From: Actinomycetes bacterium
GTDB lineage: Bacteria > Actinomycetota > Acidimicrobiia > Acidimicrobiales > Palsa-688
Assembly (NCBI GenBank): GCA_021850325.1
Contig: JAJZMF010000047.1
Location: forward strand, 1-45,249
DNA: 45,249 bases
Reading direction: 5' to 3'
The position numbers were made by a program, and so were the translations under genes. Below are positions 8,711 to 44,681 of this stretch, in pieces. Within the stretch, counting starts at the first letter, position 1, and each line of letters starts with the position of its first letter. The notes under the pieces are model-generated. The model saw nothing but the letters and a program-made list of their open reading frames with translations. It ran no database searches and had not been told where the DNA came from.

Positions 8711-9502
8711 GTGGCGCGCTCGTCCCGGAGGTTACGCACCCCGGGCGGAGAGCCGGCCCTGGGCGCGGTGACCGATGACCACCAGGCCGACCTGGTGGTC
8801 ATGCCGGCGCAAGAGGCGCACATGGCGCCACTCCTGGTGCAACCCGAGGCGTCCTCGGGGCCCCAGAGCCGAAGAGACGAGCCGGGCGCGGTGACGCGGG
8901 GGCCTCTCCGGCGTCATTCCGGCGGTCCTCGGGCCGATGAGGACGACGGGAAGACAGAGGAGAGCGGCATCCCCTTTGGCGACGGCCCCCTGGGGGCGGC
9001 CAAAAGGGGTGACCCGGCGTCCTGGGAGGCCGCTTACCTCGCCTACGGGAGCGCGCTGATGGGCTACTTGACCCTAAGGCTGGACAGCTGGGACGACGCC
9101 GCCGAGGCGTTGTCCGAGACCTTCACGCGCGCCATCGACAAGGTCGGCACCTTCCGGGGTGACGCCTACGCGTTCCGTGCCTGGTTGTTCAGGATCGCCC
9201 GCAACGTGTCCACCGACCAGCACCGCCAGCGCGCCCGGCTCGTGGTGGTGCCGGACCAGCCCGAGCCCCGTGGCCAGGCCGAGCCGTCCGGCGAGGACGT
9301 TGCCATCTTCCATGCCGACGTGGCCGAGCTGCGCCGGGGCTTCGGCCGGCTCAGCCAGGCCGACCGTGAGGTCCTCTGGCTCAGGGTCTGCAGCGGCCTG
9401 TCGGCGAACGAGGTGGGCGAAGTCCTGGGCAAGAAGCCCGGTGCTGTGCGCATGCAGCAGATGCGGGCGCTCGAGGCCCTCCGGGACCAGGTGCAGTTGT
9501 GA
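8711..9502 (+). CDS. ECF-like sigma-70 family RNA polymerase sigma factor
   Basis: This 263-residue protein has a disordered, charged N-terminal extension of about 95 residues. The sigma region 2 core follows (WEAAYLAYGSALMGYLTLRL, DDAAEALSETFTRAID, FRAWLFRIARNVSTDQHRQRAR). After a linker comes region 4 with its helix-turn-helix (LSQADREVLWLRVCSGLSANEVGEVLGKKPGAVRMQQMRALEAL read in parts). It should direct RNA polymerase to a small regulon. The next gene starts inside its stop codon (GTGA overlap, 9499-9502) and encodes a membrane protein that could be its anti-sigma factor. The surface-protein genes lie directly downstream. The N-terminal extension is longer than usual for ECF factors. A start at 8822 would shorten it to about 227 residues in total. 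Confidence 0.85.
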   Translation: MARSSRRLRTPGGEPALGAVTDDHQADLVVMPAQEAHMAPLLVQPEASSGPQSRRDEPGAVTRGPLRRHSGGPRADEDDGKTEESGIPFGDGPLGAAKRGDPASWEAAYLAYGSALMGYLTLRLDSWDDAAEALSETFTRAIDKVGTFRGDAYAFRAWLFRIARNVSTDQHRQRARLVVVPDQPEPRGQAEPSGEDVAIFHADVAELRRGFGRLSQADREVLWLRVCSGLSANEVGEVLGKKPGAVRMQQMRALEALRDQVQL

Positions 9503-10758
9503 ACGACCCCCGCCAGGACAGGGCCGATGCACTGGACCGGGCGCTGGACGGCGCACCTGCTCCCGGTGGGAGCCCTGACGGCCACGGTGGGGACGAGCTC
9601 GTACCTCTCGCCCAGGAGCTGCGTACTGCGCTGGTACGGCCGTCGCCCCCAGCCGGCGTGGCTGGTCAGGTCCGCGCCGCGGCGGCCGCCGCTCTACTGG
9701 CCAGGCGTCGGTCCCGGGTGCGCACGTTGGTTGCGGCAGTGGTCATGCTCCTGCTCGGCGCCATCGGGGGTGGGCTGGTCAACGAAGTGGTCGGGCCGCA
9801 ACCTCGAGCTGAGCTACAGGCTCAGCTCGCCACTGTGCACCGTCGCATCGAGGCCGCGCAGGTGGCCCTGAGCGCAGCCCTGCAGGCCAAGGACCCGGTA
9901 CGGGCCAAGCAGTTGCTGAGCCAGGCCGCCCGCGCCATCCAGGCCAATGCCGCCCCGCCGAGCTCGGGCACATCGGCTCCCACGACGGGCCCTGCGCCCC
10001 AGGCCCTCCAGGTGGCCGAGCTCCAGCGCCAGCTGGCGGAAGAGGAGCAGCGGTACGCCCAGGCTGTAAAAGCCCTGGCGGCAGCCCGGGCCAGTTCCTC
10101 GCAGCTGGCAGCACCCACTGCCAGCACGGCGGTGCCCACTACGGCGCAGGCCGCTACTACTACGACGGGGACGTCGGCGCCCACCACGCGCGAGCCCCGC
10201 CGTACGACCGTGCCCCGCCGTACGACCGTGCCCCGCCGCACGACAGTGCCCCAGCATCGCACCTCGCCCACGAGCCGGCCGACGGGTACGACGGCGCCAC
10301 CGCCTCCTTTGGGTGAGCCGACCACCACACGTGCTGGCCGCCCGACCACGTCCTCGACGCCACCGACGTCAAGGCCCACTACCACCCGTGCGCCGGTCAC
10401 GACCACCACCCGTGCGCGGCCCACCACCACCCTTCCCCAGCAGCGCCAGGTGCCCCCGCCGCCCCCACTGCCTCCTACCACGACTACCACCACGAGGCCG
10501 GCGACGACCACGTCGACGTCCACCACGTCGACGTCCACCACTACGACGTCGACGACGGTGCCCACCACCACCACCACGACGTCGAGCACGACGACCACCG
10601 TCCCCACCACGACGACGTCGAGCACCACCACCACGACCTCGAGCACCACGACCACCACAGCCGCCTCGGGTGGGCAGACCACGACGACCGCCATCAGCGG
10701 GCCCGCCACCACGACCACCTCGTCAGCAGCTGCTCCGCTCGTGCCTGCCGTCGGCTGA
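9499..10758 (+). CDS. Membrane protein with Thr-rich extracellular stalk, possible anti-sigma factor
   Basis: This 419-residue protein has a cytoplasmic N-terminus of about 75 residues (ALDRALDGA...LVPLAQELRTAL), like the short helical region ahead of the membrane in some actinobacterial anti-sigma proteins. One membrane helix follows (VRTLVAAVVMLLLGAIGGGLV), then a helical, possibly coiled-coil region of about 110 residues, then over 200 residues dominated by Thr, Ser, Pro and Arg. That last part includes three RRTTVP repeats and long TTTTSTSTT-like runs. It is coupled to the sigma gene by a 4-bp GTGA overlap. The zinc-binding HxxxCxxC motif of classic ZAS anti-sigma factors is absent. The Thr-rich part resembles a mucin-like, O-glycosylated stalk that could span the cell wall. 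The anti-sigma function is inferred from gene order and topology only. Confidence 0.65.
   Translation: MNDPRQDRADALDRALDGAPAPGGSPDGHGGDELVPLAQELRTALVRPSPPAGVAGQVRAAAAAALLARRRSRVRTLVAAVVMLLLGAIGGGLVNEVVGPQPRAELQAQLATVHRRIEAAQVALSAALQAKDPVRAKQLLSQAARAIQANAAPPSSGTSAPTTGPAPQALQVAELQRQLAEEEQRYAQAVKALAAARASSSQLAAPTASTAVPTTAQAATTTTGTSAPTTREPRRTTVPRRTTVPRRTTVPQHRTSPTSRPTGTTAPPPPLGEPTTTRAGRPTTSSTPPTSRPTTTRAPVTTTTRARPTTTLPQQRQVPPPPPLPPTTTTTTRPATTTSTSTTSTSTTTTSTTVPTTTTTTSSTTTTVPTTTTSSTTTTTSSTTTTTAASGGQTTTTAISGPATTTTSSAAAPLVPAVG
10195..10248 (+). repeat. Three tandem 18-bp repeats in the stalk coding region
   Basis: Units at 10195-10212, 10213-10230 and 10231-10248 share CCCCGCCGTACGACCGTG. The first two are identical and the third differs at two positions. 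They encode RRTTVP three times in the extracellular stalk. The low divergence suggests recent duplication by slippage. Confidence 0.9.
10480..10668 (+). repeat. ACC/ACG low-complexity tract encoding the poly-Thr stalk
   Basis: The tract is built almost entirely of ACC, ACG, TCG, TCC and AGC codons in imperfect short repeats. It encodes Thr/Ser runs with occasional VP pairs. Because the trinucleotide period keeps the frame, length variation between strains is expected. Confidence 0.8.
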
Positions 10759-10896
10759 CGCAGGCATCGGGCCGCCCCGACGCAAGGGTTGCCCGCGCTG
10801 CCACCCCGGCGCCCGGCGGGGGGCCACCCGGCACCAGGCCCGGGTAGGTGCGCCTGCGGGAAGGCGCCCCTGAGGGCCGATGGTGGCCCGGCCGAA

Positions 10897-10937
10897 TTGT
10901 GAGCAGCGGGTGAGGGCCTCGTGAGGGAACTGTGAAT
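10897..10937 (+). promoter_or_regulatory. Four 11-bp-phased GTGA repeats, probable OmpR/PhoP-type regulator site
   Basis: GTGA starts at 10899, 10910, 10921 and 10932, exactly 11 bp apart, and in the first three copies it is GTGAG. Read on the minus strand the half-sites are TCACAGT, TCACGAG, TCACCCG and TCACAAT, each separated by 4 nt. This is the layout of the mycobacterial PhoP box (TCACAGC-N4-TCACAGC). An exact copy of that box lies before the PhoP-like gene at 42409. The array sits about 60-95 bp upstream of the expected transcription start. Confidence 0.6.
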
Positions 10938-10982
10938 TACCTGCTGACCTGGTCGGACAGCCGGAAGGTCGCTGTGACGGGA

Positions 10983-10988
10983 TAGGGT
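10983..10988 (+). promoter_or_regulatory. -10 box TAGGGT of the surface-protein gene
   Basis: TAGGGT lies 45 bp downstream of the phased repeats and about 6 nt before the expected start near 10995. No recognisable -35 hexamer was found 16-18 bp upstream, which would fit an activator-dependent promoter. Confidence 0.4.
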
Positions 10989-10999
10989 CTCGCTCGTCT

Positions 11000-11032
11000 T
11001 ACTCCCGGCTTGTCTCGAGCAAGCCGGCAGTA
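11000..11032 (+). promoter_or_regulatory. 5'-terminal stem-loop of the surface-protein mRNA
   Basis: TACT pairs with AGTA and CCGGCTTG (11005-11012) pairs with CAAGCCGG (11020-11027). One C/C mismatch separates the two helices and the loop is TCTCGAG. It begins within a few bases of the expected transcription start, a position where stem-loops commonly protect very abundant mRNAs. It has no U-tract. It could instead be a palindromic operator. Confidence 0.55.
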
Positions 11033-11125
11033 GCACGGTGCCTTTGGTCCACCACGCGCCCGGTCTGAGCTGGCTAAAGTCGGATCCGGCCGTGGCCTGT
11101 GGGCCCAAAGGCGCACGGCAGAAGC

Positions 11126-11145
11126 GCCACCCAACAACGGGTGGC
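11126..11145 (+). promoter_or_regulatory. Leader hairpin upstream of the surface-protein ribosome site
   Basis: GCCACCC (11126-11132) and GGGTGGC (11139-11145) form a perfect 7-bp stem with a 6-nt AACAAC loop. It lies just after the 3' arm of the long-range pairing 11040-11047/11105-11112 and 18 nt ahead of the AGGAGGG ribosome site. Confidence 0.45.
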
Positions 11146-11180
11146 AAATGTTGACCCTACCTAGGAGGGAAACAAACTAG

Positions 11181-13844
11181 ATGCAAGAACCGATCAGATC
11201 GGCAGCAAGGCCGAGAGGTTGGGGACGCTCGAAGGCGCTCGGTGGCGCATTGGCGCTCACCATCGCAACCTTCGGCTCCGTGGCAGCCGTAACGGCTGGC
11301 ACGGCCTCGGCTGCTTCCACCTACTCGCCGGTGGTCACCCAGGACTACACCGTCGGGTCGGCCGCATCGAGCGTGAGCAGTGTCACGGCGTCGGTGAGCC
11401 CCACCACGCCCAACACGACCGCCAGCTACTCGGTCAAGTTCACGACTCCGGCGGCTCTCACCGTCGGTGCGTCGGCCAGCTCGATCCAAATCGCCGGCAC
11501 CGGCCTCACGGCCAACCCGACCTCAGTGAGCGTGGCCGACCTCAACACCGGCTTCGCCTCCACCGAGACCGGCACCGTGAACGCCGGCACGTTGACCGTG
11601 GTCCTGTCGACGGGCACCAGCACCTTCAACTCGGGTGACACCATCCTGGTGTCGTTCCAGGCCACCACGCCCAACGTGGTGTCGTCCACGTCGTACACCT
11701 TCTCGGTGACGACCAGTGCCAGCACCACGGCGGCGACGGCCAACTCCATCACCATCTCGCCGACGGTGACGGCTCCCAAGGCCGCTCAGTCCAGCCAGGT
11801 GCTGGGTGCCGGCTCGACCTACTCGCTGAGCAGCATCGCGGTGCTCACGAGCACGAGCAGCACTCTCACGTCGACCAACGTGACCCTGCTGGCCTGCCCG
11901 TCCTCGTCGGGTGCCTCCGGCACCGGCCAGTCCCTGAGCTTGCCGAGCGTCTGCGCCTCACCCAATGCCGGTGGTATCACCTGGTCCACCGCCCCGGGTA
12001 GTTATGCCGTCACGCAGTACACCTCGGCCGGCACCGCCACGGCGGCGATCACCGTCAACTCGGCGACCGCCACCACCAACGGCGTCATCCTCAACATCAG
12101 CGGTGGTACCGCCTCCGCCACCACCGGCATCCTGACCGCCGGTGACAACCTGACCGTGACCGGGACGGGCACCAACCCGACCTCGGCCGTCTCCGACGTG
12201 CTCGTGGCCGGCATCAGTGACCCGGCGCCCGCGTACTACGAGGAGTCGGGCAACACGGTCGCCTTCGGTGGCCAGATCACCGGTCTCACCGTGACCCCGG
12301 CGCCTGCCTCCTCGGGCTCCACCGCCATCTACACGCTCAACTTCACGACGAGCAGCTCCGGCGCTCTCGTGGCGGGCAACAGCATCACGGTGGTGGCTCC
12401 CAAGGGGACCTCGTTCACGAGCTCGGTCGGTGCGGTCGTGACCGACACCAAGACCGGGATCAGCGAGGTCGTGGCCGGTGCCAACAACGGCCTGACGACG
12501 ACCACCAACACCGATGACACCGTCGTGCTCCCGGTCAACTTCAACGTTGCTGCCGGGGACCCGCTGAGCGTGGTGCTCTTCAACGTGGTCAACCCCGCTG
12601 CCGGCTCCTACGGGGGCACGAGCGGGTTCACCGTCAGCACCAGCACGGACATCATCGCCGCCACCAACGCCACTGCGTACACGATCACGCCTGCCGAGGT
12701 CTCTTCGCAGTCGCCGACGGTGACCCTGTCCGACAGCGCCACCGGCGCCCTGTCCAACTACACGATCGCTTCGTTCAAGGCCGCCAGCGCGCTGGTGGGC
12801 GGGACCGACACGATCGAGGTCAAGGCTCCCACCGGCACCCTGCTGCCCAGCGCAGCAACCCTCACCGACTCGACCACCAGCACTGGCACCCAGACGATCA
12901 CCGCCAGCACTGGTGCGGGCACGGCTGACGCCACCTACAAGCTGAGCGCCAACGTCGCCGCCAACGACCTGCTCAGCCTGTCGCTGAGCAACGTCATCAA
13001 CCCCGGTACGTCCAGCACCACTGAGCAGATCACGCTCGGTGCTGACAACGCCACCACCAACGCCACGGTGGCCGGCACCCAGGGCCTGGCGACCATCCTG
13101 CCCAGCTTCCCGGCAGTGGCCAGCGCCGCTGGTTACCCGGACGCCGGCATCGTCAACTTCTCCGGCACGTTCTACGTGTTCGCCGGTGGGCATGCCTTCG
13201 GTATCCCCACCCCGGCCGCGCTGAACGCGATCAGGGCTGTTGACCCGGCCGTGCCGCAGAACGCTCCTTCGGGTGCGACTGTCCCGGCCACGGCTCCGGC
13301 CATGGGCACGCTGATCGTCGCCTACAACAACCCCACCATCTATGTGGTGGGTGCTGACGGCCAGCTGCACGGGTTCGCCACGACTGCTGAGTTCATGAGC
13401 CTCGGCTATGACCCGGCAGACGTGATCACGGTCCCGGGCACCGGTGGCATCAAGGTCGGTGCCAACCTCGGTACTCTCGGGGCTGCGGGCAACGCCTTCG
13501 CCACCGAGTCCAACGGCGCCATTGTCAACAGCTCCAACACGTTCTACGTGTTCGCTGGTGGCAAGGCGTTCGGCATCCCGGGCGTGAAGGCCCTGAAGGC
13601 GGTCCAGGCCGCTGACATGGCCACCACCCTGACGGGCGCCGTGACGACTGCTCAGACCAGCGCCACGCCCCGCAACGGCACCCTGTACACCTATGGTGGC
13701 GGGGTCTGGGTGGTCAGCGGAGGCAACCTGTACCAGTTCAAGGGCATGGTCCAGCTCAAGAACGATGGTTATGGTGGCACGCCTTCGTTCGTCATCCCCA
13801 ACACGGGTGGCCTCAGCATCGTCACCAGCTACAGCGGTTCCTAG
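11181..13844 (+). CDS. Secreted surface protein, S-layer candidate
   Basis: This 887-residue protein is exported by a Sec signal peptide (hydrophobic run ALGGALALTIATFGSVAAV, cleavage near TASA/AST). The body is extremely rich in Ser, Thr, Ala, Gly and Val and poor in charged residues and Cys, with at least three beta-sandwich-like repeats of about 130 residues (near 50-190, 380-510 and 510-640). The C-terminal 230 residues form four units in an A-B-A-B order: NFSGTFYVFAGGHAFGIP, NPTIYVVGADGQLHGFATT, SNTFYVFAGGKAFGIP and GGVWVVSGGNLYQFK. The B units end in DVITVPGTGG or PSFVIPNTGG. Codons are strongly biased to C-ending forms, the leader is structured, and two hairpins follow the gene, all as expected for a very abundant protein. 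An S-layer role is inferred. The AGGAGGG ribosome site lies 11 nt from the ATG. Confidence 0.8.
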   Translation: MQEPIRSAARPRGWGRSKALGGALALTIATFGSVAAVTAGTASAASTYSPVVTQDYTVGSAASSVSSVTASVSPTTPNTTASYSVKFTTPAALTVGASASSIQIAGTGLTANPTSVSVADLNTGFASTETGTVNAGTLTVVLSTGTSTFNSGDTILVSFQATTPNVVSSTSYTFSVTTSASTTAATANSITISPTVTAPKAAQSSQVLGAGSTYSLSSIAVLTSTSSTLTSTNVTLLACPSSSGASGTGQSLSLPSVCASPNAGGITWSTAPGSYAVTQYTSAGTATAAITVNSATATTNGVILNISGGTASATTGILTAGDNLTVTGTGTNPTSAVSDVLVAGISDPAPAYYEESGNTVAFGGQITGLTVTPAPASSGSTAIYTLNFTTSSSGALVAGNSITVVAPKGTSFTSSVGAVVTDTKTGISEVVAGANNGLTTTTNTDDTVVLPVNFNVAAGDPLSVVLFNVVNPAAGSYGGTSGFTVSTSTDIIAATNATAYTITPAEVSSQSPTVTLSDSATGALSNYTIASFKAASALVGGTDTIEVKAPTGTLLPSAATLTDSTTSTGTQTITASTGAGTADATYKLSANVAANDLLSLSLSNVINPGTSSTTEQITLGADNATTNATVAGTQGLATILPSFPAVASAAGYPDAGIVNFSGTFYVFAGGHAFGIPTPAALNAIRAVDPAVPQNAPSGATVPATAPAMGTLIVAYNNPTIYVVGADGQLHGFATTAEFMSLGYDPADVITVPGTGGIKVGANLGTLGAAGNAFATESNGAIVNSSNTFYVFAGGKAFGIPGVKALKAVQAADMATTLTGAVTTAQTSATPRNGTLYTYGGGVWVVSGGNLYQFKGMVQLKNDGYGGTPSFVIPNTGGLSIVTSYSGS

Positions 13845-14076: not shown

Positions 14077-16515
14077 ATGAGGTCCGTACTCCCTGGGTGG
14101 CGTCGGCCCAGGCGCCTCTCGGTTTGGCGGGCAGCTGCTCTGGCCGGCCCGGTGCTCCTGGGGCTCGTCACGGCCCCTGTCCTCCCCGCTCCGCCTGCCT
14201 ATGCCGATGTGATCACGGCCCCCTACGGGATCGGGACAGGCGCCGGCGCTGTCGGGAGCCTGCTCGTACTGCCCGGGGCGGCTGCACCCGGGGCCTGGAG
14301 CGACTTCCTGGTGAGCTTCGTGGCGACCTCGCCCATCGGTGACGGTGGCACTGTCGGTGTGACCGGCCAGGGGCCCTTCGTCGGAGCGGTGGCCGGGGTG
14401 TCTACCTGGGACAGCGCCGGTGACTGCCCGGCAGGCGCCCGGGCGTCGACTTTTGACAGCCACGGCGGCCTTGTGGTCCAGCTCGGCCCTCATTGCCGGG
14501 TGCCGGTCGGGGACCGTCTGTACGTCGAGTTCGGCGCTCAGGCACCGACCACAGCCTTCTCGCTGCAGGTGGTGACGAGCGCCAACCCGACACCTGCTGT
14601 GTCCGGGGCCATCCCGGTGACCGCAGGCCCGGCGACGGTCGTGGCCTCCTCGGACCAGGCCGGGGCGCCGTCGGCCTACCTGATGAGCGACATCCCGGTG
14701 CCGGCGGAGGCCGCTGGGGCGAGCACCCTGACCCTGGCCGCTACGGCGCAGAGAGGGACGGGCACCGTGGCGTGGTCTGCCGGCGCGGCCGGCTACATGG
14801 TCACCTATGTACCGCCCGGGGGTTCCGGAGGGCTCGACCCGGTGGTGGCCTCCTCGCCCACGAGCCGCCCCGGTGAGGTCGTCCTGCACCTGTCCCAGCC
14901 CCTGTCGGGTGGAGGCGTGGTGTGCCTGGCGGCTCAGGGCTCCAACCCGCCGGCGGGAACGGGCGACACGTTCTCGGTAAAGGTGGGCGACGCAGCGCCC
15001 CGGGCCGCCGCCGAGGGTGTCGACTACCTGAGCGCTGTGGGCTCGCCCAGCGTCCTCGTGGCGCCCGACGTCTCGGGTGCGGTCGCCCTCTACACCGTGC
15101 AGTTCGCGGCGTCCCAGGCTCTGACCGGGGGTGACATCGTCCTGAGCCAGCCCGAGACCGACTTCTCCACCGTCTCGGAGGTCACCCTCACCGACCGCAC
15201 GACGGGCATCAACTACCCCGTGAGCGGGGCCACGTTGACCTACGGTAAGGCGGTCGTCCCCGTGCCGACGGGCTTGGGGCCGGGCGACGTGGTCAGGGTG
15301 ACGCTCTCGGGGGTGGGCAACCCGCCTGCCGGCACGGTGACGGACTTCGCCGTTTCGACCTCCGCCGACTCGCTTCCCGTGTTCGCTCCGGCTTATGACA
15401 TCGGCCAGGCCGGGGACGTGGTGACGGTGAGCGCCGAGCCTTCGACCCCGGGAGCGACTGCCGACTACGAACTGTCGGGGCTCGTCGCCAGCGCCAACCT
15501 GCCGGCCGATGTGGGCACGATCAGGTTGAGCGCGCCGGTGGGCACGGTGCTGCCGTCCAACCCGGCCGACTACTACGTGCGTGACGCCACGACGGCCGGC
15601 AGCTCGGGTACGGCGGCCCTGCTCACCGCAGGGGGTGGTTCCGCCTCGGTCACTTTCGCCGTGCCCCAGGCGGTGGCCGCAGGTGACGTCATGGACCTGG
15701 TCGTCCACGACGTGGTGAACCCACCCGCCAGCGGGGTGTACACGCTGGCCCTGGGCGGCCCGGTGACCGGGCCGGCAACAGGCACCAGTACGTCGTTCCC
15801 TGCTGCCAACATCTCGTACCCCGACGGTTCGATCATCGACTTCGGGGGCACGCTGTACGTCATGGCCGGAGGTCACGGCTTCGGCGTGGTGACCCCGGCT
15901 CAGGCGACGGGCGTGGAGGCTGTGGACCGGGCCGGCGTGCTGCAGGCCCTCCCCGGTGCCTCCGTGCCCTCGGCGCCTCCGGCGCCCGGCACCCTGCTGA
16001 CCCCCTTCAACAGCCCCACCGTGTACGTGGTCGGGGCCGACCGCCTCCTCCACGGTTTCGCCACGCCGGCCCAGTTGCTCTCGGACGGTTACGACCCGGC
16101 CCAGGTCATCACCGTGCCCAACCTGGGGGGCCTCAGTGTTGGGGCGACGGCGGGCTCCCTGGGCATGGCGGCCGATGCCCTGTCAACGGTGTCCAACGGT
16201 GCCATCGTGACGTCGGGCGGCGCCTTCTACGTCCTGGCCGGTGGCCGGGCGTTCGCCGTGCCCAACCAGCTGGTGCTGGCCCAGGTGCGCGCCGCCGACC
16301 GTGCGTTGCCCCTAGCGGGCTACGTACCCGGCCTCCTCACGAGCGAGCCGGTGTCTGACGGCACGCTGGCCACAGTGGGCGGTGTGGTCTACGTCGCCTA
16401 CGGCGGCCAGTTCTACCCGGCCACTTCACTGGCCGAACTGCGGGCAGCCGGCTTTGCCGGCACCCCGTCCATAGTGCTGCCGAGCACGGGGGGCGTGAGC
16501 ATCGCTGCCCGCTGA
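14077..16515 (+). CDS. Secreted surface protein, paralog of the S-layer candidate
   Basis: This 812-residue protein has a signal peptide (VWRAAALAGPVLLGLVTAPV, cleavage near AYA/DVI). Two or more beta-sandwich repeats share a VxNPPAGxxxxFxVSTS or VVNPPASGVYTLxLGG end with the upstream paralog. The C-terminus has the same A-B-A-B module: DFGGTLYVMAGGHGFGV, SPTVYVVGADRLLHGFATP, SGGAFYVLAGGRAFAVP and GGVVYVAYGGQFYPATS. The B units end in QVITVPNLGG and PSIVLPSTGG. Codon use is less extreme than in the paralog, and a leaderless -10 box replaces the long leader, so lower expression is expected. It could be a minor coat component or share an anchoring mode through the conserved C-terminal module. 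No enzyme motif was recognised. Confidence 0.78.
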   Translation: MRSVLPGWRRPRRLSVWRAAALAGPVLLGLVTAPVLPAPPAYADVITAPYGIGTGAGAVGSLLVLPGAAAPGAWSDFLVSFVATSPIGDGGTVGVTGQGPFVGAVAGVSTWDSAGDCPAGARASTFDSHGGLVVQLGPHCRVPVGDRLYVEFGAQAPTTAFSLQVVTSANPTPAVSGAIPVTAGPATVVASSDQAGAPSAYLMSDIPVPAEAAGASTLTLAATAQRGTGTVAWSAGAAGYMVTYVPPGGSGGLDPVVASSPTSRPGEVVLHLSQPLSGGGVVCLAAQGSNPPAGTGDTFSVKVGDAAPRAAAEGVDYLSAVGSPSVLVAPDVSGAVALYTVQFAASQALTGGDIVLSQPETDFSTVSEVTLTDRTTGINYPVSGATLTYGKAVVPVPTGLGPGDVVRVTLSGVGNPPAGTVTDFAVSTSADSLPVFAPAYDIGQAGDVVTVSAEPSTPGATADYELSGLVASANLPADVGTIRLSAPVGTVLPSNPADYYVRDATTAGSSGTAALLTAGGGSASVTFAVPQAVAAGDVMDLVVHDVVNPPASGVYTLALGGPVTGPATGTSTSFPAANISYPDGSIIDFGGTLYVMAGGHGFGVVTPAQATGVEAVDRAGVLQALPGASVPSAPPAPGTLLTPFNSPTVYVVGADRLLHGFATPAQLLSDGYDPAQVITVPNLGGLSVGATAGSLGMAADALSTVSNGAIVTSGGAFYVLAGGRAFAVPNQLVLAQVRAADRALPLAGYVPGLLTSEPVSDGTLATVGGVVYVAYGGQFYPATSLAELRAAGFAGTPSIVLPSTGGVSIAAR

Positions 16516-17136: not shown

Positions 17137-18525
17137 CTACCCGCGGCCGGCCAGGCTGTCCCGGCCTGCCGGCCCCGGGCCGTCCGTCGCGGCTCGGGCG
17201 CGCAGCGGCAGGCTGACCACGAAGCGGGCGCCGCCGTCCCTGCTGCGCCCCACGGTCACCGTGCCGGCGTGGGCTTGCACCAGGTTGTGCACGACGGCCA
17301 GCCCGATCCCGGCGCCCTGGGTGCCCCGGGCCGCCCTGCCCCGGTAGAAGCGCTGGAAGACCAGGCCGGCCTCGTCGGGCGGCACGCCGGGCCCGGCGTC
17401 CGACACCTCGAGGATCCCCTGGTCGCCCCGGCTGTACACGGCCAGGTTGACCGTGCCGCCCGAGGGTGTGTACTTCGCTGCGTTGGCCAGCAGGTTGGTC
17501 ACCACCTGGCTCAGCCTGCTCGGGTCGGCCCACAGGGGGGCCGGTTCGAAGGACTGGCTGAAGCTGATCCCGGCCATCTCGAACCTGGTGCTGAAGCTCC
17601 CCGCCACGTCCGCCGCCACGTCGGCCAGGTCCACCTCGGAGCGGGCCAGCTCGAAGCCGGCGGCGTCGGAGGAGGCCAGGGTCTGCAGGTCGTTGACCAG
17701 GCGGCCCAGACGGAGCACCTCGTGGTGCAGGGACTGGGCCGTCTCCATGGTGAGCGGCCGGAGGCCGTCCACTATCGACTCGGTCTCGGCCTGCAGGACG
17801 GCGAGCGGGGTCCGCAGCTCGTGGGCCACATCGGCAGCCATGGAGCGCCGTATCTGCTGCTGGGCCTCAAGCGCCCGGGCCATGGAGTCGAAGGTGGCGG
17901 CCAGTTCGCCCAGCTCACCGGGAGCAGTGCCTGCCACCGGGGAGACAGGGTCGCCTCGGGCCAGGGCCTTGGCTGCGGCCGAGAGCCTGCGCACCGGCCG
18001 CATGAGCGCCCTCACCACCAGGAGGGCCCCCACGACGGCGGCCAGGGCGGCTGCCAGGGCCCCGAAGAGCAGGGCCCGGGTCAGGGAGGCCGCGAAGGCC
18101 CGGTCGGCCTGGCTCAGGCTCCCGGCCGGGAAGGCCAGCTCGACCGTGCCCACCTGGTGGCCGGCGACGGTGACGGCGCGCACCTCGGTCGTGGCGCCGG
18201 CCGGTAGCGGCGTCGTCGCCTCGGAGCGCACGACGTAGGTGCCGTCGGGCCTCAGCACGCTGAGGCAGGCATGGTGGGAGGCGGCCACGGACAGGGCACC
18301 GCGTAGGTCGGCCTGGTCCCAGCCCTGGCCCGCCTGGTAGGTGCTCGTCAGAAGGGAGCTCACCGCAGCCGCCGTTTCGCTCCGCTGCCCGGCGGCCAGG
18401 GCGACCATGTCCGAGCGCTCACTGTAGAGGGCGACTGACATGACCACCACGTCGGTGGCGAGGGCCAGGCCGACGAAGACCAGCATGACGAGCCTGCCCA
18501 AGCGGCCCAGGCGCCAGTCGCGCAC
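17137..18525 (-). CDS. Two-component sensor histidine kinase
   Basis: This 462-residue membrane kinase has TM1 at about 10-32, an extracytoplasmic sensor of about 115 residues, TM2 at about 148-172, and a HAMP linker. The dimerisation domain has phospho-acceptor H235 in VAHELRTPL. The ATPase domain has the N box NLLANAAKYTP, G1 DAGPGVP, F box FQRFYRG and G2 GAGIGLAVV, all intact. It starts 3 bp after the response regulator stop, in the same operon. The sensor carries HHAC (84-87), which could bind a metal. The divergent neighbour is a metal-transport ATPase, so metal sensing is a reasonable but unproven idea. The C-terminal 20 residues are a disordered Gly/Arg/Pro tail. Confidence 0.92.
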   Translation of the reverse strand: MRDWRLGRLGRLVMLVFVGLALATDVVVMSVALYSERSDMVALAAGQRSETAAAVSSLLTSTYQAGQGWDQADLRGALSVAASHHACLSVLRPDGTYVVRSEATTPLPAGATTEVRAVTVAGHQVGTVELAFPAGSLSQADRAFAASLTRALLFGALAAALAAVVGALLVVRALMRPVRRLSAAAKALARGDPVSPVAGTAPGELGELAATFDSMARALEAQQQIRRSMAADVAHELRTPLAVLQAETESIVDGLRPLTMETAQSLHHEVLRLGRLVNDLQTLASSDAAGFELARSEVDLADVAADVAGSFSTRFEMAGISFSQSFEPAPLWADPSRLSQVVTNLLANAAKYTPSGGTVNLAVYSRGDQGILEVSDAGPGVPPDEAGLVFQRFYRGRAARGTQGAGIGLAVVHNLVQAHAGTVTVGRSRDGGARFVVSLPLRARAATDGPGPAGRDSLAGRG

Positions 18526-18528
18526 CGC

Positions 18529-19230
18529 TCAGCGGTCCCTGTCCACCCCGAGGCGGTAGCCGAGGCCCAGGACCGTCTCCACCAGGACCGGGTGCGCCGG
18601 CTCCTGCTCGATCTTCTGGCGCAGGTTCTTGACGTGCGAGTTCACCGTGCGCTCGTAACCCTCGTACTCATAGCCCCGGACCAGGTTGATGAGCTCGTAG
18701 CGCGAGTACGGGCGGCCCGGGGTGCGGGCCAGGGTGAGCAGTATCCCCCACTCGGTGGGGGTCAGCTCCACCTCCTGGCCCCGCACGCTCACCCGGTGGT
18801 GCTCCTCGTCGATGACCAGGTTGCCCTGTCCGTAGGAGGCAGGCCCCCGTTCGGGTTGGCCGTTGGGCACGCCTCTGCGGAGTATGGCCCGGGCCCGCAG
18901 CACCAGCTCCCGGGGGCTGAACGGCTTGGTCACGTAGTCGTCGGCCCCCAGTTCGAGCCCGGCTATGCGGTCCTTCTCCTCCGAGCGGGCCGTCAGCACC
19001 AGCACCGGGGTACTGTCCACCTGGCGCAGTTCGCGCAGCACCTCCTCGCCTGGCAGGTCAGGCAGGCCCAGGTCCAGCACGACGAGGTCCAGTGGGCCCC
19101 GGCGGCTTATGGCCAGTGCCTCGGCCCCCGATCCAGTGGTGTACACGACCATGCCGTCGCGTTCGAAGTAGGAACGCAGCAGCTGGCGGAGCTTGTACTC
19201 GTCCTCGACGACCAGCACCGTTGCGACCAT
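18529..19230 (-). CDS. OmpR/PhoB-family response regulator
   Basis: This 233-residue regulator has a receiver domain with the acidic pair E9-D10, phospho-acceptor D53 in VVLDLGLPD, and the conserved Lys at 102 in DDYVTKPF. A winged-helix DNA-binding domain follows (ELTPTEWGILLTLARTPG, ERTVNSHVKNLRQKIE, VLGLGYRLG). It partners with the histidine kinase downstream (3-bp gap). The ATG at 19230 has GGAGGG 5 nt upstream and gives the usual N-terminus (MVATVLVVEDE). An in-frame start at 19272 would add 14 atypical residues. The gene is divergent from the P1B-type ATPase, so it may regulate both itself and that transporter. Confidence 0.92.
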   Translation of the reverse strand: MVATVLVVEDEYKLRQLLRSYFERDGMVVYTTGSGAEALAISRRGPLDLVVLDLGLPDLPGEEVLRELRQVDSTPVLVLTARSEEKDRIAGLELGADDYVTKPFSPRELVLRARAILRRGVPNGQPERGPASYGQGNLVIDEEHHRVSVRGQEVELTPTEWGILLTLARTPGRPYSRYELINLVRGYEYEGYERTVNSHVKNLRQKIEQEPAHPVLVETVLGLGYRLGVDRDR

Positions 19231-19281
19231 GGCGGCCCTCCAAGGGCTAGTCAACCACGAGTGCCCGCCCAAGCGCGCCCC

Positions 19282-42305: not shown

Positions 42306-42323
42306 TCACAGCCGGCTCACAGC
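42306..42323 (+). promoter_or_regulatory. PhoP box TCACAGC-N4-TCACAGC
   Basis: Two exact TCACAGC half-sites (42306-42312 and 42317-42323) are 11 bp apart, start to start. This equals the direct-repeat consensus known for mycobacterial PhoP. It lies 85 bp before the ATG of a PhoP-like response regulator and starts 5 bp after the prfC stop, so autoregulation is likely. A CAGGAT at 42341 could be the -10 box. Confidence 0.75.
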
Positions 42324-42408: not shown

Positions 42409-43098
42409 ATGAGTGCAATGGGCAGGATCCTGGTGGTGGACGACGAGCCGTCGATCGTCGACTCCGTGTCCACTGTGCTGCGCTACGAGGGCTTCGACGT
42501 CGACACCGCGGCTACGGGGCGGGCTGCCCTGGCCAAGGCCCAGGAGGGCCGCTACGACATGGTCGTCATGGACGTCATGCTCCCCGACCTGGACGGCCTG
42601 GAGGTGACCCGGCGGATCCGGGCCGATGGGCTGGGGGTCCCGGTCCTGTTCCTCACGGCCAAGACGGAGGTGGAGGACCGGGTGGCGGGCCTGACCGTGG
42701 GTGGGGACGACTACGTGACCAAGCCCTTCTCCCTCATCGAGATCGTGGCCCGGACCAAGGCCATCCTGCGCCGGGGGGTGCCTGCAGTGGAGGGCGACCG
42801 CAAACTGCGCTTCGCGGACGTGGTCATGGACGAGGAGAGCCATGAGGTCTGGCGAGCCGGGAGCCCGGTCAAGTTGACGGCCACCGAGTTCAACCTCTTG
42901 CGCATCTTCCTGCTCAACCCGCGCCACGTGCTTTCCAAGGACCAGATAATCGACCACGTCTGGCACTACGACTTCGGCGGGAACCAGAACATCGTCGAGA
43001 CCTACGTGCGCTACCTGCGCAAGAAGCTGGAGGTCCTCGGCCCGCCTCTCATCCACACCATCCGCCTGGTCGGTTACGTGCTACGCGAGCCGGAGTGA
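42409..43098 (+). CDS. OmpR/PhoB-family response regulator, PhoP-like
   Basis: This 229-residue regulator has a receiver with D11/D12, phospho-acceptor D55 in VVMDVMLPD and K105 in the block GGDDYVTKPFSLIEIVAR. The winged-helix domain contains DEESHEVWRAGSPVKL, TEFNLLR, VLSKDQIIDHVWHYDFGG, VETYVRYLRKKLE and HTIRLVGYVLREPE. Several of these blocks match the mycobacterial PhoP sequence as I remember it, notably GGDDYVTKPFSL, HEVW, DHVWxYDFGG and GYVLREP. Orthology versus another paralog of this subgroup is not proven. AAGGAGG lies about 11 nt before the ATG. An exact PhoP-type box lies upstream. The kinase gene overlaps its stop (GTGA). Confidence 0.93.
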   Translation: MSAMGRILVVDDEPSIVDSVSTVLRYEGFDVDTAATGRAALAKAQEGRYDMVVMDVMLPDLDGLEVTRRIRADGLGVPVLFLTAKTEVEDRVAGLTVGGDDYVTKPFSLIEIVARTKAILRRGVPAVEGDRKLRFADVVMDEESHEVWRAGSPVKLTATEFNLLRIFLLNPRHVLSKDQIIDHVWHYDFGGNQNIVETYVRYLRKKLEVLGPPLIHTIRLVGYVLREPE

Positions 43099-44681
43099 CC
43101 AGCCGGCTCTCGCTGCGGGCGCGCCTGTTGCTGGCTGTCGCCGCCGTAGTGGTCGTGGCCTTCGCCCTGGCGGACTTCTTCGTCTACAGGGAGCTTGCCA
43201 CCTACCTGGACAACCAGGTGGACGCCACCCTCGAGGTGTCCCATCACGCCGTGGAGGCCACGGCGCTCAACCCCCTGGCTGCCGCCCAGGGCGGCTCGGT
43301 CTTCGTACCCGGGAGGGACAACGCCCAGCCGTCCGGCGGTGACGAGGCGCCGGCCCCCGTGCAGGTCCGAACGGCCCCGGCCGCCCCCCCGGGCGGGGAG
43401 GCCCCCGAGGGGCGCTCGGCCTTCTGCGCCCTGGGCCGGGAGAGCGCGCCGGGCCTCTTCATCGAGGTGCTGAACCCGAACGGGACGGTCGTCACCGGCC
43501 CCGCCGGGCGGGAGATCTGCCCCGCCTTCCAGCCCGGGAGCGCCAGCTACACCCCGGCGCTGCCTGCCGGCTTCGCCGGCCTGGCCGCCGCGGGCCGCCC
43601 GCGAACCGAGCCGCAGGCCTACCTCACGGTGGGCGCTGCCGGGGGCAGCGGGCCATCGTTCCGGGTGCGGGCCTCCGCCCTGCCCAACGGCCAGGTCCTG
43701 GTCCTGGCTGCGCCCCTCTCCAGTGTCTCCAGCACGCTCTCGCAGCTGGTCGGGGTGGAGGTCGTGGTGACCGGGGCCGCCGTGGTGGCCGCAGTGGTGC
43801 TGGGCGGCTGGATGGTGAGGGTGGGCCTGCGCCCACTGCGCGACGTGGAGCGGACGGCCGAGGCCATCTCGGGCGGCGACCTGGTGCACCGGGTGCCCAA
43901 CCCCAACCCCCGCACCGAGGTCGGCCACATGGCGACCGCCTTCAACGTCATGGTGAGCCGGGTCGAGGAGCTGGTGGAGGACCTGCGCTCGTCGGAGGCA
44001 CGCCTGCGACGTTTTGTGGGGGACGCCTCCCACGAGCTGCGCACCCCGTTGGCCGCGGTGTCGGCCTACGCCCAGTTGTTCGAGCGGGGGGCCGCCTCGC
44101 ACCCCGAGGACGTGGAGCGGGCCATGGCGGGCGTGCGCACCGAGTCGGCCCGCATGGCCCGCCTGGTGGAGGACCTGCTCACCCTGGCCCGTCTGGACGA
44201 GCACGCAGAGCTGGCACTGGAGCCGGTCGAGCTGGTCGACCTGGTCACCGAGGCAACCGGCACGGCCCGCCTGGTCGGGCCGGCCTGGCCGGTCGGCTTC
44301 GTGGCCCGGGAAGCCGTCGAGGTGATGGGGGACCGGGGCGCACTGCGCCAGGTCGTGGACAACCTGCTGGCCAACGTGCGCGCCCACACCCCACCGGGCA
44401 CACGGGCCACGGTCACAGTCGAGCGCCGGGGCTCGCAGGCCATGATCGAGGTGGCCGACAACGGCCCCGGCATCACTGCCGAGCAGGCCGCCGTGGTCTT
44501 CGAACGGTTCTTCCGCGCCGACCCGTCGCGCTCGCGCCAGACCGGCGGGGCCGGGCTGGGCCTGTCCATAGTGGCCTCGATAATGCAGGCCCACCAGGGC
44601 CGGGCCGAGGCGGAGCCGGCCCCTGGAGGCGGCGCCGTCTTCCGGGTCTGGCTGCCCGCCCTGCCTCCCGAGGAAACCTAG
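43095..44681 (+). CDS. Two-component sensor histidine kinase, PhoR-like partner
   Basis: This 528-residue membrane kinase has TM1 at about 10-30 and a large extracytoplasmic sensor of about 180 residues with two cysteines (FCALGRES and EICPAFQPG). TM2 lies at about 214-240 (VVVTGAAVVAAVVLGGWMV), followed by HAMP. The dimerisation domain has H313 in GDASHELRTPLAAVSAYAQLF. The ATPase domain has NLLANVRAHTPPG, DNGPGIT, FERFFRADPSRSRQTGG and GLGLSIV. The N box reads NLLANVRAHTP, typical of the actinobacterial PhoR/TrcS/TcrY group. The GTG start lies inside the regulator's TGA, so the pair is co-translated. The sensor middle is Pro/Ala/Gly-rich, and no ligand can be suggested. Confidence 0.94.
   Translation: MTSRLSLRARLLLAVAAVVVVAFALADFFVYRELATYLDNQVDATLEVSHHAVEATALNPLAAAQGGSVFVPGRDNAQPSGGDEAPAPVQVRTAPAAPPGGEAPEGRSAFCALGRESAPGLFIEVLNPNGTVVTGPAGREICPAFQPGSASYTPALPAGFAGLAAAGRPRTEPQAYLTVGAAGGSGPSFRVRASALPNGQVLVLAAPLSSVSSTLSQLVGVEVVVTGAAVVAAVVLGGWMVRVGLRPLRDVERTAEAISGGDLVHRVPNPNPRTEVGHMATAFNVMVSRVEELVEDLRSSEARLRRFVGDASHELRTPLAAVSAYAQLFERGAASHPEDVERAMAGVRTESARMARLVEDLLTLARLDEHAELALEPVELVDLVTEATGTARLVGPAWPVGFVAREAVEVMGDRGALRQVVDNLLANVRAHTPPGTRATVTVERRGSQAMIEVADNGPGITAEQAAVVFERFFRADPSRSRQTGGAGLGLSIVASIMQAHQGRAEAEPAPGGGAVFRVWLPALPPEET

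Follow-up and report, generated by a model that had tools for sequence, protein, structure and literature searches.

A strictly phased repeat upstream of a surface-protein gene raises two questions: whether the repeat is an operator and, if it is, which regulator reads it. The window analyzed here, 45,249 nucleotides in full, is an entire contig (C5) of its own genome (3.18 Mb). The gene concerned (11181-13844, + strand) encodes a secreted S-layer-like protein of 887 aa and is accompanied by a tandem paralogue of 812 aa (14077-16515, + strand; 37% identity). No Pfam, NCBIfam or PDB sequence match was obtained for the 887-aa protein, and its predicted model was beta-rich with a pLDDT of 44. A PDB search with this model returned the Ig-like domain protein PrgB as its first weak match; given the poor model and the weak matches, assignment of a fold was rejected.

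The phased array upstream of the surface gene

The sequence-only reading of this DNA had placed GTGA starts at 10899, 10910, 10921 and 10932, and all four were present on the + strand with zero deviation from 11 bp. The half-sites (TGTGAGCAGCG, GGTGAGGGCCT, CGTGAGGGAAC and TGTGAATTACC) occupy 10898-10941 and carry TCAC on the minus strand, where the units read ATTCACA, CCTCACG, CCTCACC and GCTCACA. Relative to the -35 element of a probable ECF-type promoter (see below), the array spans 33 to 76 bp upstream, and its tandem half-sites with an 11-bp period are as expected of a direct-repeat operator of the OmpR/PhoB family. It is the sole 4x11 GTGA array in the window, and the genome search proposed in the sequence-only reading, when run with the four-unit 11-bp GTGA pattern over all 3,177,012 bases, returned the window's own array and no other (1 forward, 0 reverse; 0 for a reversed-pattern control).

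The frequency of GTGA predicts 1.1e-5 such arrays in a window, both strands counted. Judged without a prior choice of word, the array is no more than modestly improbable by chance: dinucleotide shuffles of the window contained a 4x11 array of some 4-mer in 7/200 cases and an array of any 4-mer at any period from 7 to 15 in 79/200, and the 4-mer scan of the window itself also yielded one period-12 array and five period-15 arrays. Since comparable arrays arise in these 7 and 79 shuffles, the array alone cannot carry the case.

Orthologous surface loci were compared in four relatives. The same-genus orthologue (G001:C103), of which the contig holds just the first 11 codons, has no array (best four-unit score 9/16, no pair within 2 mismatches) and retains the core promoter and leader despite this. 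At the G022 locus the best pair has 2 mismatches and falls where the upstream gene ends (-298 relative to the ribosome-binding motif), and the best pair at the G004 locus has 3 mismatches; G017 is the only one of the four with an exact two-unit site. Absence of the phasing in close relatives, named in the sequence-only reading as evidence against it, was thus found in the same-genus orthologue, while G017 keeps an exact pair.

A probable 11-bp TGTGA operator across the family

TGTGA-N6-TGTGA with at most one mismatch occurred 35 times in the own genome, against 5 times for the reversed pattern. When TGTGA pairs with spacers of 2 to 12 were scanned in 32 family genomes, period 11 accounted for 39 among the 150 matches listed, which come from 8 genomes, and each of the ten other periods for 6 to 20. 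The same pair lies upstream of 13/38 surface-gene homologues, each other spacer being found in 0 to 4 genes; counted as hits in these 38 upstream regions, spacer 6 gave 19 and the ten other spacers 0 to 5 each (16 in total). The set of 38 was restricted to homologues that reach the N-terminal end and have upstream sequence, and so omits, for example, L009, L012, L013, L021, L022, L024, L026, L029 and L031, as well as stretches L211, L212, L218, L219 and L220. Many of the family sites, and some of the 13 genes, are mutually orthologous, so that the counts are not independent. At 11/13 of the operator-bearing surface genes the coding strand carries GTGA; the reverse orientation is seen at F5/8 and DUF5666 genes, as well as at the gene for the PhoP-like regulator (see below). 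A surface paralogue with the operator is present in the own genome (contig C17) and in the same-genus relative (G001:C105).

A longer form of the operator, TGTGATGGTYCTGTGA, searched with one mismatch, gave 27 sites in 12/32 family genomes, against 1 for the reversed control, and 10 sites in the 286 genomes outside the family that belonged to an order-level sample of 298. Of the ten family genomes that contain a surface homologue (E below 1e-20), nine carry this form (the exception is G010), and 3/12 of the genomes that bear it (G002, G006 and G020) have no such homologue. The flanks of these sites, which played no part in the search, carry TGTGA (4 of 5 positions or better) at offset -22 in 17/27 sites, compared with a mean of 0.57 per offset and with 4 each at the next best offsets, -44 and -11, which makes the operator, like that of the window, an array of several phased units. 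If the association with surface genes holds, TGTGATGGTYCTGTGA plus the unit at -22 would serve as a sequence handle for listing the surface regulon of the family.

Genes beside TGTGATGGTYCTGTGA sites include surface homologues (L226, L228, L235 and L244), relatives of a Thr-rich F5/8 type C protein (L232, L237, L239 and L242), secreted-looking proteins divergent from uvrC, a WhiB-like protein (L238) and a PAS-SpoIIE protein (L035), the labels WhiB-like and secreted-looking having been assigned by eye from the sequences. By a crude signal-peptide rule, a secreted-like neighbour is present at 15/27 sites; 16/38 listed neighbours pass this rule, and 22/126 genes do so at other loci. DUF5666 proteins adjoin other TGTGA arrays, a third case (L136) being under the Pfam cut-off.

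Several individual sites were recorded beside these. TGTGATGGTCCTGTGA lies at positions 1692-1707 of L063 (G000:C17:51000-56000), between uvrC and a divergent gene for a secreted-looking protein, and a site between uvrC and the divergent gene recurs in G001, G002, G004, G018, G022 and G026. Six TGTGA-like units with spacings of 11/10/11/10/11 precede a sulfotransferase-domain gene at about 2195-2253 of L062 (G000:C45:7000-12500), and five TGTGA units with spacings of 11/11/10/11 lie at about 1845-1892 of L126 (G022:C9), between a DUF5666 secreted-protein gene and a divergent gene.

The family-wide distribution of period, word and gene class supports an operator of the OmpR/PhoB response-regulator type, built of 11-bp direct repeats and linked to these surface genes. 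As a family the operators seem real, and the copy in the window appears to be young or to have been lost in other lineages. We consider it probable, by a modest margin over even odds, that a response regulator of the OmpR/PhoB family uses the array as a multi-unit operator, set beside the ECF-type promoter of the S-layer-like gene. DNA-binding domains of the regulator would sit head to tail on the 11-bp half-sites, and the core promoter would probably be read by the ECF sigma factor whose gene lies two genes upstream. The effect of the regulator on transcription of the S-layer-like gene would be one of tuning, most likely activation.

Candidate readers of the operator

Two proposals that name a particular type of reader are narrower versions of this operator explanation. 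The better placed, which we regard as a real possibility at somewhat over one chance in three, is that the operator is read by another winged-helix regulator shared by the operator-bearing genomes, be it MtrA-like, MprA-like, KdpE-like, RegX3-like, of the helix-DRTVDAHVRQLRKKL type, or a SARP; the first four names are labels that we take to fit the helix sequences. In the own genome the MtrA model had ten matches with E up to 1e-50, all of them short of its cut-off, and RegX3-like, KdpE-like and DRTVDAH types are present in the own genome, G017 and G022. An MtrA-like helix is found in the own genome, G001, G004 and G017, but is not among the six G022 hits examined. The helix comparison covered the regulators that passed its filters and most of those that did not. 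Precedents for the period exist: the M. tuberculosis MtrA box is a direct repeat of G-T/A-n-A-C/T, also with an 11-bp period (PMC6265350), and the SARP AfsR binds two 11-bp direct repeats (PMC10936776). The base after GTNA in MtrA half-sites is, however, C or T, whereas the fifth bases of the array units are G, G, G and A, so that the array departs from the MtrA box.

The OmpR-family regulator nearest to the surface genes (18529-19272, - strand; histidine kinase at 17137-18525, - strand) is one of the ten MtrA-model matches of the own genome. Its recognition helix, YERTVNSHVKNLRQKIE, is not PhoP-like; as a PhoP-type reader it was rejected on this ground, its helix being of another type, and it is a possible reader of some other site.

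The actinobacterial PHO box, bound by PhoP/RegX3, consists of GTTCACC repeats. Like the array it is built of 11-bp direct repeats, and it differs in half-site and in strand: the array units do not follow the GTTCACC consensus, and repeats of that type are found instead at the own pst promoter, for which reasons the array was rejected as a classic PHO box. A RegX3-like regulator more likely serves these pst repeats, which counts against it as reader of the array. GTTCA/GTTMA-type units at 11-bp steps, resembling a PHO box, were seen upstream of pstS in L119 (G000:C32), and PHO-box-like units at the same steps are also present at the pst promoters of G001 and G017.

The second proposal, that of the sequence-only reading, is that the PhoP-like regulator of the window (42409-43098, + strand; partner sensor histidine kinase at 43095-44681, + strand) binds the array and so brings the surface coat into its own regulon. 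The exact PhoP-type box said to precede this gene was found at 42306-42323 (+ strand; TCACAGC-N4-TCACAGC). The best solved relatives of the regulator are M. tuberculosis PhoP chains (E about 6e-82). PhoP reads bases through Asn212, Val213, Glu215, Ser216, Tyr217 and Tyr220 (PMC4832192), and the recognition helix of the PhoP-like protein has identical residues at 4/6 of these positions and conservative replacements at the remainder (V to I, S to T). Arrays of three or four tandem TCACAGC units, which occur in some promoters, have a higher affinity for PhoP than pairs do (PMC4832192). The array shares with the M. tuberculosis PhoP box the 11-bp period, the TCAC core and tandem units of up to four; the period is also that of the regulator's own box, and GTGAG is common to 3/4 array units and that box.

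The array nevertheless differs from the PhoP box in its half-sites and its strand. Read on the TCAC strand, its units agree with TCACAGC at 6, 4, 4 and 5 of 7 positions, two of them in TCAC alone, and it has GTGA rather than TCAC on the coding strand, the orientation opposite to that of the regulator's own box. TCACAGC-N4-TCACAGC with up to 3 mismatches occurs 5 times in the window (5.17 expected), and the array is not among these matches; with more than 3 mismatches it was rejected as a plain PhoP box, and only 42306-42323 has TCACAGC half-sites with a 4-bp spacer. Against TGTGATGGTYCTGTGAA, array units 3-4 differ at 4/17 positions.

Orthologues of the PhoP-like regulator were sought in 14 relatives, to which the operator-bearing G006, G020 and G026 did not belong. 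Two of the 14 gave clear ones, at 74% identity or more: G001:C70 (89%) and G003:C190 (74%); with the own genome these make 3/3 orthologues preceded by the exact box. Remaining regulator loci are 49 to 56% identical, and none of the 15 examined for boxes has the exact box, L148 alone having a TCAC pair of 11-bp period (17/19 regulator loci were examined in all, the two others being L159 and L163). Among the eight operator-bearing relatives searched, G001 is the only one with a clear orthologue; none was found in the other seven (G002, G004, G017, G018, G022, G025 and G028), several of which are incomplete assemblies. Conversely, the regulator is present in G003, a genome that lacks both TGTGATGGTYCTGTGA sites and surface homologues. 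The missing orthologues and the weak match to TCACAGC speak against control of the surface coat by the PhoP-like system, which we consider unlikely, at about one chance in five, the retained base contacts and the shared period notwithstanding.

The sequence-only reading had also noted that no description of PhoP-type control of S-layer genes had come to its attention. Searches of the open literature returned no description of a PhoP-type operator at such genes, and a search pairing S-layer with Acidimicrobi- returned no title or abstract on the control of such coats. WalR of Clostridioides difficile, an OmpR-family regulator, raises the RNA of six S-layer-protein genes (PMC9210968), and response-regulator control of these genes is therefore not new. 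The available account of WalRK does not separate direct from indirect action (PMC9210968). The likeness to the window lies in an OmpR-family regulator acting on S-layer-protein genes; the phylum and the type of regulator are different.

Core promoter, sigma factor and leader RNA

A candidate ECF-type core promoter, TGTGACG-N15-CGTC, lies at 10973-10998 (+ strand), with GTGACG (10974-10979) as -35 and CGTC (10995-10998) as -10 element. The array had been described as lying upstream of a -10 box, and it does lie upstream of the promoter; the box itself, probably TAGGGT at 10983-10988 (+ strand), is doubtful, as it falls inside the ECF spacer and is not conserved, reading TAGAGT, TATGTT, CAGGTT and TAGTGT in four orthologues. 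GTGACG-N15-CGTC, by comparison, is identical in five aligned orthologues (own, G001, G017, G022:C196 and G004) and is kept at 5/6 loci that share the leader. The sixth, L071 (G022:C80), has the 3' part of the leader, and its upstream sequence does not align and contains no GTGACG-N15-CGTC. With one mismatch the motif occurs 4 times in the window and 4.33 times in shuffles, which is chance frequency, so that the case for an ECF promoter rests on conservation. No sigma-70 promoter and no terminator was detected when 10600-11300 was scanned for them.

The ECF sigma factor gene (8711-9502, + strand; start codon unsettled) encodes a protein whose nearest NCBIfam model, TIGR02952 (BldN family), scores 93 bits against a cut-off of 206.45, outside that family. 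Next to it, and syntenic with it, a gene at 9499-10758 (+ strand) encodes a membrane protein with one apparent span (by eye) and a Thr-rich tail, a candidate anti-sigma factor; this protein matched no family, those of anti-sigma factors included. Sigma homologues at E up to 1e-25 are present in 6/32 family genomes, the own genome included, the other five being 62 to 79% identical, and these six comprise all 5 promoter-bearing genomes; the distributions of sigma gene and promoter thus match, and in the sixth, G028, the leader motif was not found. The sigma and Thr-rich genes lie upstream of the surface gene in the own genome, G001 and G022, and in G004 the sigma gene shares a contig with the surface genes. 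Fixed-spacing -35 and -10 words in sigma-bearing genomes, L071 and G028 being the exceptions, are as expected of an ECF promoter, and the core promoter is probably of ECF type and read by the sigma factor encoded two genes upstream.

A second GTGACG-N15-CGTC, at the 5' end of the sigma gene (8891-8915, + strand), is either a possible autoregulatory promoter or the first codons of the gene. The same 10 promoter bases are found at 5/5 loci with upstream sequence, the GTG being in frame with the sigma protein at all 5. In the own genome no in-frame ATG, GTG or TTG follows between this motif and 9059, inside sigma region 2, and the GTG may therefore be the start of the coding sequence. As the motif is in frame, and as the N15 spacer is not commoner than others in the fetched loci (12, vs 4 to 14), it was rejected as proof of autoregulation.

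Downstream of the core promoter, a conserved structured 5' leader RNA was modelled at 10995-11183 (+ strand) by folding and by alignment of orthologues; on the ECF reading its true 5' end is probably near 11005. Surface genes of four genera are preceded by this leader (window 10995-11183, L073, L077, L079 and L075), which is about 186 nt long and carries ACCCTACCTAGGAGGG around its ribosome-binding site. In the own genome the leader folds better than 200/200 shuffles (z -5.55); the corresponding values are z -3.88 in G004, -2.53 in G001 and -1.60 in G017, the last not unusual. The alignment comprised five loci, L071 being excluded because its 5' half does not align, and gave a shared predicted structure of 50 pairs, 15 of them changed on both sides, with 86.6% of cells paired against 80.0% for column shuffles and 38.7 to 47.1% for slid versions and with a slightly unfavourable RNAalifold covariation term (+1.32). 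No Rfam match up to E 1 was found in 10700-11300, and a covariance model gave 3 matches in 248 sampled genomes of the order, all of them training sequences, and no new member. Leader-motif hits away from surface genes (L072, L076, L078, L080 and L081) were set aside as chance.

Conservation of promoter and leader without the array, like its absence from the same-genus orthologue and the 4x11 arrays in 7/200 shuffles, would fit a chance arrangement in a GC-rich intergenic stretch, with the ECF promoter and leader alone running the gene, but we think this improbable, at about one chance in five, given the GTGA-specific expectation of just 1.1e-5 and the family-wide enrichment of the same word, period and gene class. 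Beyond the operator explanation for the window, we tentatively put forward, as somewhat less than an even chance, that a clade of Acidimicrobiales-like actinobacteria has a dedicated surface-protein regulon with multi-unit 11-bp TGTGA operators read by a response regulator, its targets being S-layer-like, F5/8-type and DUF5666 proteins, to which the main S-layer gene would add a dedicated ECF sigma factor and a structured leader. One coat gene would then join three layers of control, by response regulator, ECF sigma factor and RNA leader.

A comparable described arrangement is that of Streptomyces, where sigma-BldN and RsbN control chaplins and rodlins (PMC4255298). There too an ECF sigma factor with an adjacent anti-sigma gene controls coat genes, the counterpart in the window being the candidate anti-sigma gene; the window differs in a sigma factor far below the TIGR02952 cut-off, in a neighbour matching no anti-sigma family, and in having in addition the response-regulator-type array and the leader RNA. 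The BldN promoter, CGTAAC-N16-CGTTGA (PMC2375139), resembles GTGACG-N15-CGTC of the window in its layout.
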